In this document: in pieces, positions 3,027 through 9,915 of the stretch
Layout: every line of letters starts with the position of its first letter
Numbering within the stretch: the stretch's first letter is position 1
Origin: a virus
Strand: one strand, 5' to 3'
DNA length: 36,320 nucleotides
Virus record (IMG/VR): IMGVR_UViG_3300037339_000440
Location: 1 to 36,320 of that record
Program-made: the position numbers and the translations under genes
The notes under the pieces: generated by a model
Told to the model about the DNA's origin: nothing
Database searches by the model: none
What the model saw: only the letters and a program-made list of their open reading frames with translations

Positions 3027-3698
3027 TCAGCCCTGTCTGACTGCCAGGATATTTTCAGAGAAGACCCTGACCCCAGGGATTATGCAGTCACCCTTTAGCA
3101 ATGAAACCTGTTTGCCAATGGCAGATAAATTAGGCATCAGAAATTCCCTGGGCAGTAGATCAGGATTTGTGATTTCATACTTCCAGATCACCCTGGCACT
3201 GATGCCTTCAGTGGCTGGCCTGGATGGTACCAGGGGTTTGGCTTCCATCAAAACCTGGTCTTTAATGGCTGCCTTGGCCAGGACATTCAGGGCCTTCCCT
3301 TCATCACCCCTGTCTGCTGCCTTCAATGCTTCAGCCTGGGCCTTCTGCTGCTGTTTGATTCTTTCAGCTTCTAGCCTGTCCCTTTCATCTTGGGCTTCCC
3401 TTCTCTTTCTTTCCCTTTCCATCAGATAATCAGCAGTGGCTTTCCTGACCAGCCTTTCAGGTTCAGAATACATATCCATGTATTTCCTCTTTTTGGAAAG
3501 GCATGACTGGTGATGTTCATGGGCTTCTTTAATCAATGGGTCAAAGGTATCACAAATTTCCTTGGTGATGGTTCTAAGATTTAGCAAAAAAACATTTGCT
3601 GCCTGAAGCTGCTGATCATCAATAATGGTCAGATAATCCTTGGCCTGCTGGGTCATCACCAAAGCCCTGCTTTGAAATTTTTCTTCATGATCTGTCAT
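3027..3698 (-). CDS. conserved coiled-coil phage protein in the recombination cluster
   Basis: 223 aa. Residues ~15-60 are helical (QAKDYLTIIDDQQLQAANVF), residues ~70-130 form a long charged coiled coil (MERERKRREAQDERDRLEAE), and the C-terminus has a conserved-looking folded part with ISARVIWKYEI, LPREFLMPNL and DCIIPGVRVFSE. I have seen this arrangement beside RecT/Rad52-type genes in many siphophages, where it is annotated as hypothetical. It overlaps the nuclease gene upstream by four bases (ATGA), so it probably acts with the recombination pair. No enzymatic motif is visible. Confidence 0.75.
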   Translation of the reverse strand: MTDHEEKFQSRALVMTQQAKDYLTIIDDQQLQAANVFLLNLRTITKEICDTFDPLIKEAHEHHQSCLSKKRKYMDMYSEPERLVRKATADYLMERERKRREAQDERDRLEAERIKQQQKAQAEALKAADRGDEGKALNVLAKAAIKDQVLMEAKPLVPSRPATEGISARVIWKYEITNPDLLPREFLMPNLSAIGKQVSLLKGDCIIPGVRVFSENILAVRQG

Positions 3699-4732
3699 TT
3701 TAATTCCCCTTCCAGCTTCTTGAAGCTGGTTCTGAAATATTCCACCTTTTTGGCATAGGCCTTCTTGATGCTGTCTATTTCATCCTTAACTTCAATTGGA
3801 AGATCATATTTGGTGGTGAAATATCCCTTGGATTCAATCAGCCAATTCCCCACTACTGTTTTTCTTCCTTTGAAAAAGTCTTTGATTTCCTCATCCAAGT
3901 CTTCATACTCTGAAGCCAGCGGTTTCAATTCATATCGCCTTTCCAGCTTTTCAGTCCATAGGGCAATAGATTCAATATCCATGATGAAATCATAGCCAGG
4001 GCCAAAATCTTTGCCCACAAAACAAAAAGACCTTTCAAATTCACAGCCGTCACAAAGGTCTTTTCTGACTGGTTCTGCAATCCTTCCAGCATCACAATCA
4101 GCATTGATTCTTTCAGCCCTTTGCAGCAGGGATTCAGCATATTCCAAGTCCAGTGGGGCAATCCAGAAGAAGAAATCCCCAGCAGTTTTTTCAAAGAAGA
4201 ACCAGGCCCCCCATTCACTGTTGTCCTGCAATTCATAGGTCTGCAGCTGGCCAGGATATTTTCTTAGGAAAATATATTTGCTGTCCAGCATTCCATGCCA
4301 GTCACCTGTTTCTTCCTTCATGGCCTTGATCATCCTGAAGGTGCCAGGGCTGCAGGTCTTGGTTTCCAGTGGGATAGGGATATTCCTTAATATGGGCACC
4401 CCTATCTTGGCATCAATGTGGCCGCTGATTCTGTATTTGGTTTGGGTGAATTGCCTGCCCTGTTCAATGATCTTCAGGCCTGCATCCTCTATCAATCTAA
4501 GGTTTGGCTTTTCCAGGGCTGTCCCAATTCTGAAAATCTTCAGCAGGGGAAGGGGTGGCAGCTGCATTAATTCAGGTTTCTGGTGGGCCAGATCATGCCA
4601 GGTATCACAGGCCAGCCCCAATTCACTGGCCCTGTTTGCAGTCCTGGCATAATTCCTGGCAGTGCTGATGATGTGGCCATCCACCTGGGCCTTCAGGGAA
4701 TCTTCAATTATGGTCAAGTCTCGTCTATTCAT
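3695..4732 (-). CDS. PD-(D/E)XK exonuclease, Cas4/RecB-like with Fe-S cysteines
   Basis: 345 aa. Nuclease motifs are visible in order: GHIDAK (D107), PLETKT (E123, K125) and the QxxxY helix QLQTY (162-166). One cysteine at C42 and a C-terminal set C227-x2-C230-x6-C237 match the four-cysteine iron-sulphur arrangement of Cas4 and AddB nucleases. In phages such proteins resect double-strand ends so that an annealing protein can load. It overlaps the upstream gene by four bases and the downstream coiled-coil gene by four bases, forming one coupled cluster. The C-terminal 100 residues are helical and charged. Nothing links it to CRISPR here. Confidence 0.8.
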   Translation of the reverse strand: MNRRDLTIIEDSLKAQVDGHIISTARNYARTANRASELGLACDTWHDLAHQKPELMQLPPLPLLKIFRIGTALEKPNLRLIEDAGLKIIEQGRQFTQTKYRISGHIDAKIGVPILRNIPIPLETKTCSPGTFRMIKAMKEETGDWHGMLDSKYIFLRKYPGQLQTYELQDNSEWGAWFFFEKTAGDFFFWIAPLDLEYAESLLQRAERINADCDAGRIAEPVRKDLCDGCEFERSFCFVGKDFGPGYDFIMDIESIALWTEKLERRYELKPLASEYEDLDEEIKDFFKGRKTVVGNWLIESKGYFTTKYDLPIEVKDEIDSIKKAYAKKVEYFRTSFKKLEGELK

Positions 4733-5685
4733 TTCTTGGCCCCTTCTTTGGCTGCTGGCTGCTGCTGGCCATTGGCTGCAGGAAACATCTTGGCATATTC
4801 ATCAGGAAAATTGGATTTGAAAATTCCCCTGATTCTGCCAAGGGTAGTTTCAATCCATCTGGCTGTCTTGATATCCCTGACATCTTCTCTGAAGACTTCC
4901 TGCTTTTGGGCATCCAGCCATTTGCTGGCTTCCTTGATGAAAACCTTGGCCCCTTCTTCAGAACCATTGCCCAAGATCAGGGCAATTTTGTGAATCAGGT
5001 TTCTGTTGTCCAGGGCTTCCTTGGGCAATTCAGCTTCAGCCTTTTTCCTGTCCTTTCCATATTCCACTTTTTCAATCTTGGTGATATTCAGGCCAGCCTG
5101 CTTCAATTCATCTTCAGTAATATTGGAAAGGCCCAGGCACCTGCTGATCAGTCTTCTGTAAAGGTTTGTCACTGATTTCTTTTTGACATCAGTGATATCC
5201 ACGTTTTCCAGCTGCTTCCAAACTTGGCCAACTTTGCCAAAGAAATCATCCCTGCTGCTGCAGGTTCCAATGTCTTCAATCCATCTGCCCAGCTTCCTGC
5301 TGAAGGCTTTGCCCTTTGCTGTGAAGACATAGTATTTCCCACCATCGTCCTGAAACCAGTCCAGGTGGGGGTCATCAAAAAGGGTGATATCAATACCCCA
5401 GGCAATACCAATTTTCTGCATCCCTGATTCACTGGGGCTGATGCCGTCACCCTGCAGCAGCCAGTCCTTTTCATTTGTCAGCCTCAAAGAAATGATTCTG
5501 ATTTTCTTGAAAAATTCCACTGACTTTTCAGTGGCTGCCACCATTTTTTCAAGGCTGGCCGCATCATTGGAAATGTCCATGATTTCCATTTCCCTTTCCC
5601 TCACCATTGGTTCTTCACTGGAAGAAGTAGGGGTGAAAACATCCTTGACCCTTCCAATGAATCCTTTCTGTTTTTCTTCAGTCAT
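4729..5685 (-). CDS. putative single-strand annealing protein (Rad52-like) of the recombination cluster
   Basis: 318 aa. The central part WLLQGDGISPSESGMQKIGI (75-94), then KYYVFTAKGKAF (117-128), GTCSSRDDFFGKVG (140-153) and KKKSVTNLYRRLISRCLGLS (168-187) resembles a phage family I recall next to exonucleases, with an SGxxKI helix after a glycine loop and a conserved CSSRDxFF stretch. Its place directly upstream of a Cas4/RecB-like nuclease fits an annealing partner. The disordered ends (residues 1-40; PAANGQQQPAAKEGAKK) are typical of DNA-binding phage proteins. It has a strong AAGGAG Shine-Dalgarno, one of the few GAG-containing sites. The family assignment is from pattern memory and position. 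Confidence 0.55.
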   Translation of the reverse strand: MTEEKQKGFIGRVKDVFTPTSSSEEPMVREREMEIMDISNDAASLEKMVAATEKSVEFFKKIRIISLRLTNEKDWLLQGDGISPSESGMQKIGIAWGIDITLFDDPHLDWFQDDGGKYYVFTAKGKAFSRKLGRWIEDIGTCSSRDDFFGKVGQVWKQLENVDITDVKKKSVTNLYRRLISRCLGLSNITEDELKQAGLNITKIEKVEYGKDRKKAEAELPKEALDNRNLIHKIALILGNGSEEGAKVFIKEASKWLDAQKQEVFREDVRDIKTARWIETTLGRIRGIFKSNFPDEYAKMFPAANGQQQPAAKEGAKK

Positions 5686-5790
5686 TCTTTCTTACTCCTT
5701 AAAAATAAATTGACAAACCCACAATGGGGCTGTATAAACAAAGTATTAGTTTCCTTTTCCTTTCAGTTTATCTTATTCCAAAGCCAGCAC
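5686..5790 (-). other. intergenic region between the regulator and recombination genes
   Basis: 105 bases without a convincing gene. It holds an 8-bp hairpin (5781-5788 with 5794-5801) whose loop contains the TAG stop of the regulator gene, and a purine-rich AAAGGAAAAGGAAAC stretch. A TTG-initiated frame of about 19 codons ends in an ATGA overlap with the next gene; it may be a leader peptide or chance. The hairpin lacks a good T-run, so it could attenuate rather than terminate. Confidence 0.45.
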
Positions 5791-6102
5791 CTAGCTGGCT
5801 TCCTTATTTTCCTTTGTTTCAAGCTGGCTGATTTTTTCATTTATATCCAGCATCTGCTTCTTCAAATTAGCAATCTGGATTTTGTTTGGTTCAAAAAGGT
5901 TCAAGATTTCTGCCACCAGCATTGCCTTTGTATCCGATGGTTTCCACAAATCCCTTTGCCAGCTTTGCAGTGTACTATAAGCAAGGCCGGATAATTTGGC
6001 CAGCCTATATTTTGTCATCCCCTTCAGCTGAAGGGTTTTCTTCAAATTTTGACCTGTAAGGGCTTCTTTGATTTCAACCATACTGGGAGTCATCTTTTTC
6101 AT
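5791..6102 (-). CDS. XRE-type helix-turn-helix regulator
   Basis: 103 aa. Residues 19-70 form a lambda-repressor-like HTH: NLKKTLQLKGMTKYRLAKLS followed by GLAYSTLQSWQRD, where the recognition helix is STLQSWQR. The C-terminal 35 residues (NKIQIANLKKQMLDINEKIS) form a short coiled coil, probably for dimerisation. There is no protease or sensor domain, so it is Cro-like or a small repressor rather than a CI-LexA type. It is the first gene after promoter P2, whose spacer carries a box repeated at P1, so it likely regulates itself and P1. Start supported by AGGAAGG before the ATG. Confidence 0.8.
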   Translation of the reverse strand: MKKMTPSMVEIKEALTGQNLKKTLQLKGMTKYRLAKLSGLAYSTLQSWQRDLWKPSDTKAMLVAEILNLFEPNKIQIANLKKQMLDINEKISQLETKENKEAS

Positions 6103-6124
6103 AATAATCCTTCCTAGGGCCTGA

Positions 6125-6162
6125 ATACCTATATATTATCTATAGAGTATTGGCTATGTCAA
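6125..6162 (-). promoter_or_regulatory. promoter P2 with embedded operator boxes
   Basis: Minus strand: TTGACA (6162-6157), then GATAAT at 16-base spacing (6140-6135) or TAATAT at 18. The spacer contains the box AATACTCTATA (6151-6141) and the downstream edge carries ATAGGTAT (6132-6125). Both boxes occur also at P1. A protein bound in the spacer would block polymerase, so autorepression by the XRE protein just downstream is the natural reading. Confidence 0.7.
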
Positions 6163-6175
6163 GGAATTTTTTAAC

Positions 6176-6212
6176 AAAAAAAAGGCCCAGCACCTGATTG
6201 ATGCTGGGCCTT
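6176..6212 (-). terminator. strong intrinsic terminator ending the P1 unit
   Basis: Perfect 11-bp stem (6212-6202 with 6192-6182, AAGGCCCAGCA on the minus strand), 9-base loop, followed by eight T residues (6183-6176) on the minus strand. It lies just after the DUF932 gene stop and before promoter P2. Confidence 0.95.
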
Positions 6213-6221
6213 GGCCCATGA

Positions 6222-7730
6222 TCATTCTTTTTCTGCTTCTTCTTTCCTGGCCTGGTCTACTGCAGCCCTTAAATTTAGGCTTCCAGAATAGCCACCCTTC
6301 AAGGGCTTCAAAGGCCTGGGGGCCTTCTTGGTTTCCTTGATTTCCTTAATCAGCTGGGGCTTCTGGAATTTCTCTTTGGAAATCCTTTTCTTCCTGGGCT
6401 TCTTTGGGGGGTCTGCACAGACTGTACCAGGCTTATCCAAAAGATGCCCCACAGCATCAGCTGCAGCCCTGATGGCTTCCCTGGGAAGATTGACCAGGGG
6501 GCTTCTGGAAGGGCTTTCCTGGGGCATCCTGGCCCCAATTTCAGGGGCTTCCTGGGTCTTGGGCTGCTGATTCATCATTTTCAGGTATTGTTTTTCATCA
6601 TCAGTGGGGGGCAGCTTGGTTTCTTTGGTCTTGGCCTGCAAGGCTTCCCATTCCTTGTTTTCTTTGGCAGTCATCTGCAGGGCCAATTCAGCCTTGGCCT
6701 TGATTACTGCATCCATGGCCTTGTCCATTGGGATTCCCAATTCCAGGGTCAATTTCCTTGCAGCAGTTTCCAGTACTGAATCCGGCTTTGGAAGGGCCAG
6801 TGCCTCTCCCAAAGGCAGTGCAGGGGTCTTGCCATTCTTCTTGGCCCTTGTGATGGCCAAGGTTTCCTTGACCCTTTGCTTCACCTGGACATTGGCTTCC
6901 CTGGCTTTCTGCTGTTCTGATTTTTTGTCTGCCAGGAATTTTTCATGGGCTTCTGAACGGATGGCACCAAAATCAAATTGCTGCACATCAGTGCAAAGCT
7001 GATTCAGGATGATGGGGGCTTCATAATCCACAAACCTGACAAGATTTTGGGACAGCTGGGGCAGCCTGACTGGGTGGGCATCTTTCATCATTTCTGTCAG
7101 GGCACCATGGAAGCCATGCATGGTTCTGGTGTATTTTGAACCTTCATCAAAATACAATTCCTTGAATTCCCCAAATCTTGCAGGTGGCATGATGGGATAA
7201 GGCCTGGCCATGCCAGCCAGCAGCAATGAAGCCACCTGACTGTCTGCCAAAGAAATGTTTTTCAGGCCATCCTGCCACTGCTTCAGCAGATCAAACTGGC
7301 CTTCCAGGGTCTGCAGGGCTTCCACAGCCATGACACAGATTTCATCAAAATACAGGGCACCCGTGTGCTTCCTGAAGATGACAAAATCACCCCTGAAAAT
7401 CAGATTGCTGCAAACAGTGATGTGCCTGCCAATGCAAACTCCCACTGCCAGGGTCTTAGCTATGGAATTTCTGAAGCCCAATTCAAAATTCCCTTCACCA
7501 TTCCCTTGGTTCTGAATTTCCCAGGTGGCAAACATTTCAGAACCCTTCCTGATTGAATAGGCTTTTCTGCCTATCTGCCAGCCCAGCTGCTGGGTGGCCA
7601 GCTGGACGGCATCAATGACCTGACCATGGCTTAATGGGTGCCATGTATCAGTCCAGGCTGGGGCTGGTTCCTGCCTTGCAGCTTCTTCACCCATCCACCT
7701 GGGATTCACCTGTGTGAACCTGTTTGACAT
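6222..7730 (-). CDS. DUF932-domain protein with long basic C-terminus
   Basis: 502 aa. The N-terminal ~270 residues resemble the DUF932 (phage/plasmid TIGR03299-type) family: a start with WHPLSHGQVIDAV, then GNFELGFRNSIAKTLAVGVC, a CSNLIFRGDF strand and a helix-rich end. The C-terminal ~230 residues are low-complexity, rich in Lys, Pro, Ala and Glu (PKKPRKKRISKEKF), and look disordered and nucleic-acid binding. DUF932 proteins are common on plasmids and phages and have been linked to early takeover, but no activity is certain. It has GGAAGGTGT before its ATG and is the last gene before the terminator. The leader is RNA element B. Confidence 0.7.
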   Translation of the reverse strand: MSNRFTQVNPRWMGEEAARQEPAPAWTDTWHPLSHGQVIDAVQLATQQLGWQIGRKAYSIRKGSEMFATWEIQNQGNGEGNFELGFRNSIAKTLAVGVCIGRHITVCSNLIFRGDFVIFRKHTGALYFDEICVMAVEALQTLEGQFDLLKQWQDGLKNISLADSQVASLLLAGMARPYPIMPPARFGEFKELYFDEGSKYTRTMHGFHGALTEMMKDAHPVRLPQLSQNLVRFVDYEAPIILNQLCTDVQQFDFGAIRSEAHEKFLADKKSEQQKAREANVQVKQRVKETLAITRAKKNGKTPALPLGEALALPKPDSVLETAARKLTLELGIPMDKAMDAVIKAKAELALQMTAKENKEWEALQAKTKETKLPPTDDEKQYLKMMNQQPKTQEAPEIGARMPQESPSRSPLVNLPREAIRAAADAVGHLLDKPGTVCADPPKKPRKKRISKEKFQKPQLIKEIKETKKAPRPLKPLKGGYSGSLNLRAAVDQARKEEAEKE

Positions 7731-7755
7731 AATACACCTTCCTTTTAATCAGCTT

Positions 7756-7824
7756 GGCCAAGGCTTTGGACTTGGCCTGCAGCTTTAGACTGGCCATTGC
7801 TGGCCAGCCCCATCAGCTTTCAGC
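7756..7824 (-). ncRNA. intercistronic structured RNA element, copy B
   Basis: Lies in the 89-base gap before the DUF932 gene. On the minus strand: GCTGAAAGCTGATGGGG box, hairpin 1 (7807-7802 with 7795-7790, 6 bp), linker TAAAGCTGCA, hairpin 2 (7777-7771 with 7762-7756, 7 bp, loop TCCAAAGC). The box, linker and hairpin 2 loop are identical in copy A, while both stems differ in sequence and stay paired. No reading frame is shared by the two copies. Confidence 0.65.
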
Positions 7825-7978
7825 TTTTCACCTTCCTTTCCATCCTGACTTTCTGGATGGCTTTTTCCACTTCCTTTTGAATGGCCCTTCTTTCTCTCCA
7901 AGTCAGCTTGGCTGTCTTTTCCCCAGCTGCAATCAGGGCTGCTTTTTTGAATGCCTTTTCCAGTCTTCTTCTTTTCAT
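7820..7978 (-). CDS. small basic helical protein (52 aa)
   Basis: Starts MKRRRLEKAFKKAALIAAGE and ends RMERKVKS. It is very Lys/Arg-rich and predicted to be all helix, so nucleic-acid or membrane association is possible. The chosen ATG lies one base after the upstream stop, behind AGGGATG; a longer version from 8053 would lie inside the preceding gene. No family is recognised. Early expression from P1 fits a small takeover or regulatory protein, but that is inference. Confidence 0.55.
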   Translation of the reverse strand: MKRRRLEKAFKKAALIAAGEKTAKLTWRERRAIQKEVEKAIQKVRMERKVKS

Positions 7979-7979
7979 C

Positions 7980-8264
7980 TTAATACATCCCTGGGAAGTC
8001 CACACTGATCTGCCCAGCTTCTTCACAGCTGCTTTCAGCTGCATCCAAGGCATCTATGATTTCTTCAAGCTGACTGATGGCTTCATCCAGCTGATCAGCC
8101 TTGGATGATTGCTGAAGATTTTCTGGCAGATTGTCTTTCCAGTTTTCCAATTCAGTTTTCAATTCTTCCACCCCATCCTTGGCAGAAGAAAGGGCTTCTT
8201 CAGCAGTGGAAAGACTGGCCAATGCATCCCCAAGCCTAGTGGCCCTTGATTTGTATTTGGCCAT
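7980..8264 (-). CDS. acidic coiled-coil protein (94 aa)
   Basis: From the ATG at 8264: MAKYKSRATRLGDALASLST, then a long run of Ala, Glu, Ser, Leu and Asp in heptads (LDEAISQLEEIIDALDAAES). The body is predicted to be one acidic coiled coil, followed by a short tail with a cysteine pair of single residues. An alternative TTG two codons earlier would overlap the upstream stop. The role is unknown; it sits mid-operon in the P1 unit between two small unknowns. Confidence 0.65.
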   Translation of the reverse strand: MAKYKSRATRLGDALASLSTAEEALSSAKDGVEELKTELENWKDNLPENLQQSSKADQLDEAISQLEEIIDALDAAESSCEEAGQISVDFPGMY

Positions 8265-8266
8265 AA

Positions 8267-8626
8267 TCAATCCCTGGGGTCTACAAGGCTGATGACCTTG
8301 TGGGCAAGCCAGGTGTATTCCTGGCCATCCTGCAGCTTTACATTCCTTGGGTCTTGTCCCACCATCTTGAATTCATCCAGCATCTTTTTCAGCCCACAGG
8401 GGCCTTCCCCACCATAGCCCGCTGAAAAACCATCTGTCTTCAGGACAGTTTCAAGGCCCTTGGCATCCTTATAATGAAAGGATGTCACCAGGTGCAATTC
8501 CTTTACCTGTTTGATCAGCACCATATAGGGCCAGGGAAGACCCAGCTTGGCCATCCAGTCTTTGATAAACTGGATGGAAAGCCTTGTGATGCCCTGTGGC
8601 ATCTTGTCATTGAAAACCTTTAACAT
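8267..8626 (-). CDS. hypothetical protein (119 aa)
   Basis: Starts MLKVFNDKMPQGITRLSIQF. The protein looks globular with alternating strands and helices (KELHLVTSFHYKDA, SLVDPRD at the end) and a glycine-rich GFSAGYGGEGPCG loop around residues 67-79. I recognise no family. It has the same 20-base translation start region as the 166-aa gene (8621-8640 and 9391-9410), with AAGGAAGG. RNA element A lies directly upstream. Confidence 0.7.
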   Translation of the reverse strand: MLKVFNDKMPQGITRLSIQFIKDWMAKLGLPWPYMVLIKQVKELHLVTSFHYKDAKGLETVLKTDGFSAGYGGEGPCGLKKMLDEFKMVGQDPRNVKLQDGQEYTWLAHKVISLVDPRD

Positions 8627-8640
8627 TTGACACCTTCCTT
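8621..8640 (-). repeat. duplicated translation-initiation sequence (copy 2)
   Basis: The 20 bases 8621-8640 are identical to 9391-9410 and include start codon, spacer and AAGGAAGG ribosome-binding site of two unrelated small genes. A third, partly matching site precedes the gene starting at 7730. Confidence 0.85.
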
Positions 8641-8657
8641 TTAGAAAAGATTTGCTG

Positions 8658-8725
8658 GCTGCTGGCTTTGGACAGCAGCTGCAGCTTTAGCAGGGCCTGA
8701 TGGCCCTGCCCATCAGCTTTCAGCC
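8658..8725 (-). ncRNA. intercistronic structured RNA element, copy A
   Basis: Lies in the 86-base gap before the gene at 8267-8626. On the minus strand: GGCTGAAAGCTGATGG box (overlapping the end of the zinc-finger gene), hairpin 1 (8709-8702 with 8697-8690, 8 bp, loop ATCA), linker TAAAGCTGCA, hairpin 2 (8679-8673 with 8664-8658, 7 bp, loop TCCAAAGC). Compare copy B at 7756-7824. Confidence 0.65.
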
Positions 8726-8895
8726 TTTTCATTTGCTTCCCAAGGACAAAATCTTCTCAATTTTCCAGTCCTGGGGTTAATAGTTTTTCCATTCACCAAA
8801 TGGGATTCAAATTCCTTTTGTGAATGAAAATTCTGCCTGCACCATGAACAGTGGCCGATAATCCTGTTGGCCTTTGTTTCATCCTTCTTTTCCAT
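8713..8895 (-). CDS. small zinc-finger-like protein (60 aa)
   Basis: CSWCRQNFHSQKEFESHLV at residues 16-34 gives C16-x2-C19-x12-H32, the first three ligands of a C2H2-type finger; the fourth may be C50 in RRFCPWE rather than a second histidine. A single such finger in a 60-residue phage protein suggests DNA or protein binding. It starts one base after the upstream stop behind GGGGAA. Its stop codon lies inside the conserved box of RNA element A. Confidence 0.6.
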   Translation of the reverse strand: MEKKDETKANRIIGHCSWCRQNFHSQKEFESHLVNGKTINPRTGKLRRFCPWEANEKAES

Positions 8896-9396
8896 TCAGA
8901 TTTCCCCTTCAGCCAAGGCATAAAGGCTGTGCTTCATTCTTTCTTCCTGGTTCTGTTTGGCATACTTGGCATATTCAAGACCAGTCATTTTGTGAAAGCC
9001 CACACCCATCACCTTGAAGATTTGATCATTCCAGAAGATCACATCACCAGCACTGACTGAAGGCATTTCCTGGGGCTGAAAATCATTCTGGCCATAATAA
9101 AAAACAGCATCCAGAATGGAAGACAATTTTTTGTCTTCAGGAAGAAGGGCAATCTTGGCCATTCTTTCAGTGGGGATTAAAACTTCCCTGAATCTTTCCA
9201 AATGATCATAGGCCAGAAGGTGGATAGTGATGATCATTTCCTTCACTTCCATCATCTGCAGCTGTACTTTTGCAAAGGGCCATGTGCCCCCATGCTTGGG
9301 GTCTGCTGCCCTTTTGGTGGCAGCCTTCCTGGCTTCCTTTGCAGTCCTTTCATGTTTCACCACAGAAAAAAGCTGTTTGTCCCTTTCAGATAACAT
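8896..9396 (-). CDS. hypothetical protein (166 aa)
   Basis: Starts MLSERDKQLFSVVKHERTAK, with an Ala/Lys-rich helical N-terminus, a middle IITIHLLAYDHLERF and a C-terminal part SVSAGDVIFWNDQIFKVMGV that looks like a small beta barrel followed by a helix. No family recognised. The start is well supported by AAGGAAGG, which lies in a 20-base segment duplicated in front of the 8626 gene. Member of the P1 operon. Confidence 0.7.
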   Translation of the reverse strand: MLSERDKQLFSVVKHERTAKEARKAATKRAADPKHGGTWPFAKVQLQMMEVKEMIITIHLLAYDHLERFREVLIPTERMAKIALLPEDKKLSSILDAVFYYGQNDFQPQEMPSVSAGDVIFWNDQIFKVMGVGFHKMTGLEYAKYAKQNQEERMKHSLYALAEGEI

Positions 9397-9410
9397 TTGA
9401 CACCTTCCTT
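9391..9410 (-). repeat. duplicated translation-initiation sequence (copy 1)
   Basis: Identical to 8621-8640; includes AAGGAAGG, spacer and ATG for the 166-aa gene. Confidence 0.85.
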
Positions 9411-9717
9411 AAAAAGATTCATCCCAGCCTGTAGCTGGAATGTTTATAAAACTGATGGGCCTAAGTCCACCAGCTTTATAAAAGGATGCACACAGGCTGC
9501 ATCCCTGAAGGTGTTTCAATTTCTTTTTATCCTGACATCCGGCAAAGGCTTCTTCCTGGTGTTCTGCCATTTGTGCTGGGCAGCCATCCTGTGGCTTCCA
9601 TGCTATTGGCCCCAGGCCACCTGACCTTCGCCAAGCCAGCTGATTGATGACCTTTCTTGGGCTGCCAGCTGGGGTCTTGACCTGCCATCCCTGCTGCCCT
9701 GTCTGGCTACCCTTCAA
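9409..9717 (-). CDS. small Cys-containing hypothetical protein (102 aa), TTG start
   Basis: First frame after promoter P1. It would start at TTG, about eight bases behind GGGAAGG, and ends exactly at the ribosome site of the next gene, filling the gap. The C-terminal half has CxxC-like spacing (GCSLCASFYKAGG) and a helical KKKLKHLQ segment. The N-terminal half is low in recognisable structure. No ATG is available near the N-terminus, so the start, and even coding, are not certain; the exact fit between promoter and next gene is the main argument. Confidence 0.5.
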   Translation of the reverse strand: MKGSQTGQQGWQVKTPAGSPRKVINQLAWRRSGGLGPIAWKPQDGCPAQMAEHQEEAFAGCQDKKKLKHLQGCSLCASFYKAGGLRPISFINIPATGWDESF

Positions 9718-9915
9718 AGAACTTGCCTTCCCTAACTGGGAAGATACCTATCTTAAACCAGGCAAATACAATTGTCAAGTCTATATAGAGTATTTTGCCT
9801 TGTAAGTTATTGATTATAAATGGATAAAAAATCTTTGTTTTCTACCCTGTTTTTTGGGATGGAAAATAGGGAATTTCAGCCATTTTCCAGGCAGAAAAAA
9901 CTGATGGAAAAGGGC
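9718..9915 (-). other. AT-rich regulatory gap between tail/lipoprotein unit and P1 unit
   Basis: 198 bases with no gene. It contains promoter P1 at its low end, an 8-bp inverted repeat (9860-9867 with 9882-9889) shortly after the lipoprotein stop and a T-rich run further on (minus strand near 9825-9832), which may weakly terminate the late transcript. It is much richer in A and T than the flanking genes. Confidence 0.6.
9744..9794 (-). promoter_or_regulatory. promoter P1 with operator-like boxes
   Basis: Minus strand: TTGACA (9778-9773), exact 17-base spacer, TAAGAT (9755-9750). Just upstream of the -35 is the 11-base box AATACTCTATA (9794-9784), identical to one in P2. Overlapping the -10 and start point is ATAGGTAT (9751-9744), also in P2, here embedded in the palindrome AAGATAGGTATCTT. 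These are candidate binding sites for the XRE regulator. Confidence 0.8.

Follow-up and report, generated by a model that had tools for sequence, protein, structure and literature searches.

Why is a compact run of phage genes interrupted by two gaps that share an RNA-like design, and what might this design do to the message that carries it? The window, by which we mean the whole 36,320-nt stretch of DNA analysed here, comes from the record of a tailed phage (genes for the terminase large subunit and tape measure are present). On its minus strand, a chain of small genes that nearly touch is broken by gap 1 (8712-8627, 86 bases) and gap 2 (7819-7731, 89 bases). In both, the minus strand carries GCTGAAAGCTGATGGG, a hairpin, TAAAGCTGCA and a second hairpin with the loop TCCAAAGC, letter for letter as noted in a preliminary description of the locus; the second-hairpin stems are GCTGCTG/CAGCAGC in one copy and GGCCAAG/CTTGGCC in the other. 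The layout, the identical loops, the compensatory stems and the gap sizes given in that description were all confirmed from the sequence. It had also held that only RNA structure is conserved. No reading frame is indeed shared, and a coding explanation was rejected: the ORFs that cross the elements (8607-8732, 7687-7797 and 7785-7901) have no frame in common, and it is the stems that covary instead. The box is, however, partly coding: in copy 1 the 60-aa ORF upstream ends inside it, with its final codons and its stop (8715-8713), and in copy 2 it contains the stop codon of the upstream ORF.

A scan of the whole window against Rfam identified both elements as full-length matches (model positions 1-58) to RF02684, Twister-P5. 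Their scores of 56.4 and 52.7 bits lie above the gathering score of 37.6, and a chance match can be excluded because both exceed the threshold of one and the same family, at E-values of 2.6e-9 and 2.3e-8. Neither Rfam nor the core pattern described below yielded a third copy in the window, and two weak snoRNA matches there (sR52 and sR30) were discarded as far below their own gathering scores. Judged from their sequences, the elements are thus members of an already described type of self-cleaving ribozyme and not, as had been suggested, a new class of cis-acting RNA.

RNA folding gives the two copies a common four-stem structure, with the essential stems P1, P2 and P4 and termini paired in P5 all present in the minimum-energy fold (z = -2.75 and -3.22; 2/200 and 1/200 shuffles fold as well). 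The two hairpins recognized previously, P1 and P4, are both real, but P5 had been overlooked. The sequences of P1, P4 and P5 are not the same in the two copies, yet each stem remains paired in both, P5 changing compensatorily from GCUG/CAGC to AGCU/AGCU. The identical box, linker and loop correspond to the conserved twister core, namely L1, the cleavage site with L2, and L4. Two pseudoknots complete the fold in both copies: T1, between L1 and L4 (U7-A50, G8-C49, G9-C48), and T2, in which GC at 37-38 in L2 faces GC at 53-54 in L4. The resemblance to Twister-P5 therefore extends over the consensus core, P2, the P1 hairpin, P4, T1/T2 and the P5 termini; T1 pair 7-50 is U-A here and G-C in the family consensus, and all else falls within family variation. 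Core pieces were equated with the published twister structures reviewed in PMC5408937, the residue-by-residue numbering being our own reading. On this numbering, the catalytic guanine of L1 (model position 5) is G8714 and G7814, the conserved adenine 3' of the scissile bond is A8688 and A7786, and the cut is predicted to fall after U30, within the U-AA step (Table 1).

Table 1. Ribozymes, genes and putative signals of the minus-strand unit (window coordinates)
Feature	Position	Strand	Basis or remark
Promoter-like site TTGACA-17-TAAGAT, upstream of unit	9750..9778	-	consensus scan, sequence
166-aa ORF, upstream of ribozyme 1	8896..9396	-	ORF list
60-aa ORF, stop codon within P2/L1 of ribozyme 1	8713..8895	-	ORF list
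Twister-P5 ribozyme copy 1	8654..8724	-	RF02684, 56.4 bits over 8718-8661; fold
Copy 1 stems	P5 8724-8721 with 8657-8654; P2 8718-8715 with 8686-8683; P4 8679-8673 with 8664-8658		
Copy 1 P1 hairpin and loops	L1 8714-8710; P1 hairpin 8709-8690; L4 8672-8665		
Predicted cleavage site copy 1, between U8689 and A8688	8688..8689	-	between Rfam model positions 30 and 31; U-A step of solved twisters (PMC5408937)
119-aa ORF, first gene past ribozyme 1	8267..8626	-	ORF list; weak PHROG 19231 match
93-aa ORF, PHROG 4068 (unknown function)	7980..8261	-	ORF list and family match
Short ORF, stop 7822-7820 directly before ribozyme 2 core	7820..7966	-	sequence, ORF list
Twister-P5 ribozyme copy 2	7751..7825	-	RF02684, 52.7 bits over 7818-7759; fold
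Copy 2 stems	P5 7825-7822 with 7754-7751; P2 7818-7815 with 7784-7781; P4 7777-7771 with 7762-7756		
Copy 2 P1 hairpin and loops	L1 7814-7810; P1 hairpin 7809-7788; L4 7770-7763		
Predicted cleavage site copy 2, between U7787 and A7786	7786..7787	-	between Rfam model positions 30 and 31; U-A step of solved twisters (PMC5408937)
DUF932-like gene, 502 aa, first gene past ribozyme 2	6222..7730	-	PF06067, 24.8 bits (cut-off 23)
Strong intrinsic-terminator-like hairpin closing unit, 13 pairs then TTTTTT	6182..6212	-	scan, sequence

The assignment bears on the functions offered earlier for what does prove to be a cis-acting structured RNA with compensatory stems; of these, a processing site is now the best supported. 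A Shine-Dalgarno site follows closely on each element, so that a protein bound there could prevent initiation, as would suit a non-catalytic structure serving as a protein-binding translational operator or as an RNase processing site. However, the match to a described ribozyme spans the entire model and takes in the catalytically required residues, which makes a non-catalytic role very improbable.

Relatives were collected by scanning with a strict degenerate DNA pattern of the twister core, which found 12 loci in 11 other viral contigs (from uncultured viruses, and possibly partial); as the pattern is strict, the sample favours near-consensus copies. Twister-P5 scored above its gathering threshold in 11/11 of these contigs, with the matches confined to a single strand per contig and usually clustered, although contigs with a single ribozyme also exist. 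A looser pattern returned mostly chance matches (of 11 records added, four had a model match and three exceeded the cut-off) and was set aside. Among deposited phages, megablast with 7000-9400 gave no match and BLASTN with two ribozymes only chance matches, BLASTN being insensitive to such RNAs. In the bacterial phylum containing a Chthonomonadales MAG, 1/201 genomes carried twister-P5.

Including the two of the window, 49 full-length copies were placed in register by rule, and covariation was computed on the 39 distinct sequences of equal length. All 49 copies have the catalytic G and, after the cut, AA. T1, which lies outside the Rfam pairing model, is paired in 100% of cells across the 39 distinct copies, with two-sided changes at all three pairs; pair 7-50 is G-C in 25, U-A in nine, C-G in four and A-U in one, and its covariation is not circular because positions 7 and 50 were left free in the search pattern. 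T2 varies little among copies and accordingly contributes little covariation. For the whole structure (P2, T1 and P4), the covariation score was 0.467 as compared with 0.103 in shuffles, of which 0/500 scored as high, and it dropped to 0.09 or less when the partners were slid. The further copies and the covariation that the preliminary description had looked to for support are thus both at hand.

The densest array (locus L045, in G010) packs nine matches into about 5 kb, comprising seven above the cut-off, one full-length copy just below it at 36.4 bits, and one that is truncated; L046 (in G008) has seven above the cut-off and one remnant. The decayed or truncated remnants (L045 1239-1271, 22.4 bits; L046 10614-10659, 21.2 bits, both numbered in array orientation; record coordinates G010 46451-46483 and G008 4259-4304, minus strand) have intact copies alongside them in their arrays and still have a start codon close behind.

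Placement relative to genes is regular when scored by simple ORF rules rather than a full gene caller, with a few exceptions among the ribozymes. In 42/49 copies, an ORF of 40 aa or more terminates from -16 to +4 relative to the first ribozyme base, mostly at -4 to -1, as compared with 9% at random positions in the same loci. On the other side, 43/49 copies have a start codon with a Shine-Dalgarno match 8-46 bases past the last P4 model base (random, 14%). Gaps with ribozymes measure 68-150 bases between called genes, whereas for the other same-strand gaps the median is near 20, many fall between -4 and 20, and 4-base overlaps are frequent. In several arrays one ORF both follows one ribozyme and precedes the next, so that single genes are bracketed. 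The window, with two ribozymes on its coding strand, shares the clustered arrangement with most of the other contigs, where the clusters also occupy one strand.

The ribozymes could also be passive or selfish passengers, or repeats that aid the recombination of cassettes, with cleavage having no regulatory use. Such an origin could explain why the gene content between ribozymes varies among phages, why their presence near a given gene is patchy, and why decayed remnants (21-22 bits) exist. We nevertheless think it unlikely, since none of the 49 full-length copies has lost its catalytic residues or pseudoknot pairing, even though the stems drift, and since positioning relative to stop and start codons is strict. 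Against cassette exchange in particular, sequence identity between the copies of one phage is confined to the core, which would probably be too short for easy homologous recombination.

Our preferred reading, to which we assign a probability of about 0.8, is that twister-P5 self-cleavage splits a polycistronic phage message in the gaps of the transcription unit. The sequences establish class membership, catalytic residues, covariation and intergenic position, whereas activity in vivo, its timing and its effect on stability are what we infer. On the nascent RNA, each ribozyme would fold P2, P1 and P4 with T1/T2 and would break its own chain at UAA, 3' of the U, so that the upstream product carries a 2',3'-cyclic phosphate and the downstream product a 5'-hydroxyl. 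Three mRNAs would result, encoding the 166-aa and 60-aa proteins, the 119-aa and 93-aa proteins with the short gene, and the DUF932-like protein. The piece upstream of a cut would keep its stop codon and terminate one U past the stable P1 hairpin, and the piece downstream would begin near the P4 hairpin, before its own Shine-Dalgarno site. Since structured ends that lack a 5'-monophosphate and a 3'-hydroxyl should be poor substrates for common bacterial nucleases, the pieces could gain separate stability and translation. With the stop codon in contact with P2, folding should be impeded for a short time by a ribosome that terminates there. The P1 hairpin is stable across copies (median -14.7 kcal/mol), and a mini-twister cuts without P1 (PMC5408937); a stem that is stable here though dispensable there fits, but does not prove, a role in protecting the new end.

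The same cuts might instead have a circular outcome. Ribozyme self-cleavage gives 5'-hydroxyl and 2',3'-cyclic phosphate ends, and the paired ribozymes would excise a fragment of ~0.9 kb with exactly such ends, as expected of two ribozymes per transcript, which an RtcB-type ligase could join into a circular mRNA; the bracketing of single genes by arrays in other phages would also suit this outcome. However, 0/15 virus records with a twister, fragments in some cases, contained an RtcB gene (though a host RtcB could substitute), and contigs with a single ribozyme exist. For clustered hammerheads, moreover, circular and spliced products were sought and none was found (PMC3088659). We regard circularization as quite unlikely.

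Separation of the message by cutting has a precedent in prophages, where hammerhead ribozymes cluster around genes; Perreault et al. (2011; PMC3088659) suggested that these hammerheads process long transcripts, and reported cleavage in vitro and, for one set, also in E. coli. There, as here, several self-cleaving ribozymes surround single genes or short blocks of phage operons; in contrast to the hammerheads, the elements described here belong to another ribozyme class, number up to nine matches within about 5 kb and, in most cases, sit right between a stop codon and the next Shine-Dalgarno site. Twister and hammerhead RNAs are also known to occur near each other and near particular genes, and a 2016 review considered the biological functions of both ribozymes largely speculative (PMC5408937). 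The elements described here thus add new members to a known ribozyme class, and hammerheads already show this kind of arrangement. Dense twister-P5 arrays as such may be little described, as a literature search, made outside the original twister papers (Roth 2014; Weinberg 2015), found no report of twister arrays in phages. The glmS ribozyme is likewise a self-cleaving RNA that lies upstream of a gene and alters the fate of its mRNA, but it depends on a metabolite cofactor and its fold is unrelated, whereas nothing suggests a ligand for the twister-P5 elements here.

Arrays in which every catalytic residue is kept, and whose members mostly lie between a stop codon and the next Shine-Dalgarno site, point to intercistronic mRNA cutting as a role of these ribozymes in phages, and they supply concrete constructs with which to test it. 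We see an even chance for the broader proposal that dense twister-P5 arrays are routine punctuation in a set of uncultured tailed phages, with hammerheads doing the same job in others. The order of stop codon, ribozyme, Shine-Dalgarno site and start codon would then be repeated along an operon, and nearly every gene or gene pair would have its own mRNA with a protective hairpin at both ends.

In the window, the unit from about 9743 to 6182 on the minus strand looks complete, with a promoter-like site, genes, ribozymes and a terminator-like hairpin, and it could plausibly be an early operon. Its completeness is only suggestive, because promoter-like sites in the region are no more numerous than expected by chance; a further one lies at 6162-6135, past the terminator-like hairpin. 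Family searches returned no match for the 166-aa ORF, a weak, below-cut-off match of the 60-aa ORF to a phage zinc-binding domain (PF24071), and no relatives of the 119-aa gene. Between the upstream promoter-like site and the first clear gene, a 102-aa ORF with a TTG start (9409-9717, minus strand) overlaps a terminator-like hairpin (9442-9420), and this stretch may represent an attenuator-bearing leader and not a gene. Elsewhere in the window, a phage-borne exonuclease with a Cas4 domain is encoded at 3695-4732 on the minus strand (PHROG 1990, E 1.6e-18), next to a second exonuclease-like gene at 3027-3698 (PHROG 10477).

In two other phages, a homologue of the DUF932-like protein (44% and 37% identity over ~300 residues) is encoded immediately behind a twister-P5, and one further contig has a DUF932 gene directly before the ribozyme. 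The ribozyme is not required with this gene, since ten other contigs have a DUF932-like homologue and lack twister-P5. In one of the ten (L081), two type II hammerheads (2905-2977 and 5354-5479, plus strand) flank the homologue. The TAA of a 149-aa ORF immediately precedes the second, after which come a Shine-Dalgarno site and ATG; two bases upstream of the first there is also a TAA, though the ORF there is very short. Although this is one case, a different ribozyme class in a like slot suggests that the feature being retained is self-cleavage as such. In another viral contig (L084), a RAGATH-18 RNA (RF03064, 67.3 bits) lies at 4477-4545 on the plus strand, ~2 kb past a DUF932-like gene. Finally, an ArdC-type anti-restriction gene (5142-6214, plus strand; PF08401, PF18818) stands right behind the single twister-P5 of L054, and a hammerhead has been described right before ardA, another anti-restriction gene (Perreault et al.; PMC3088659).
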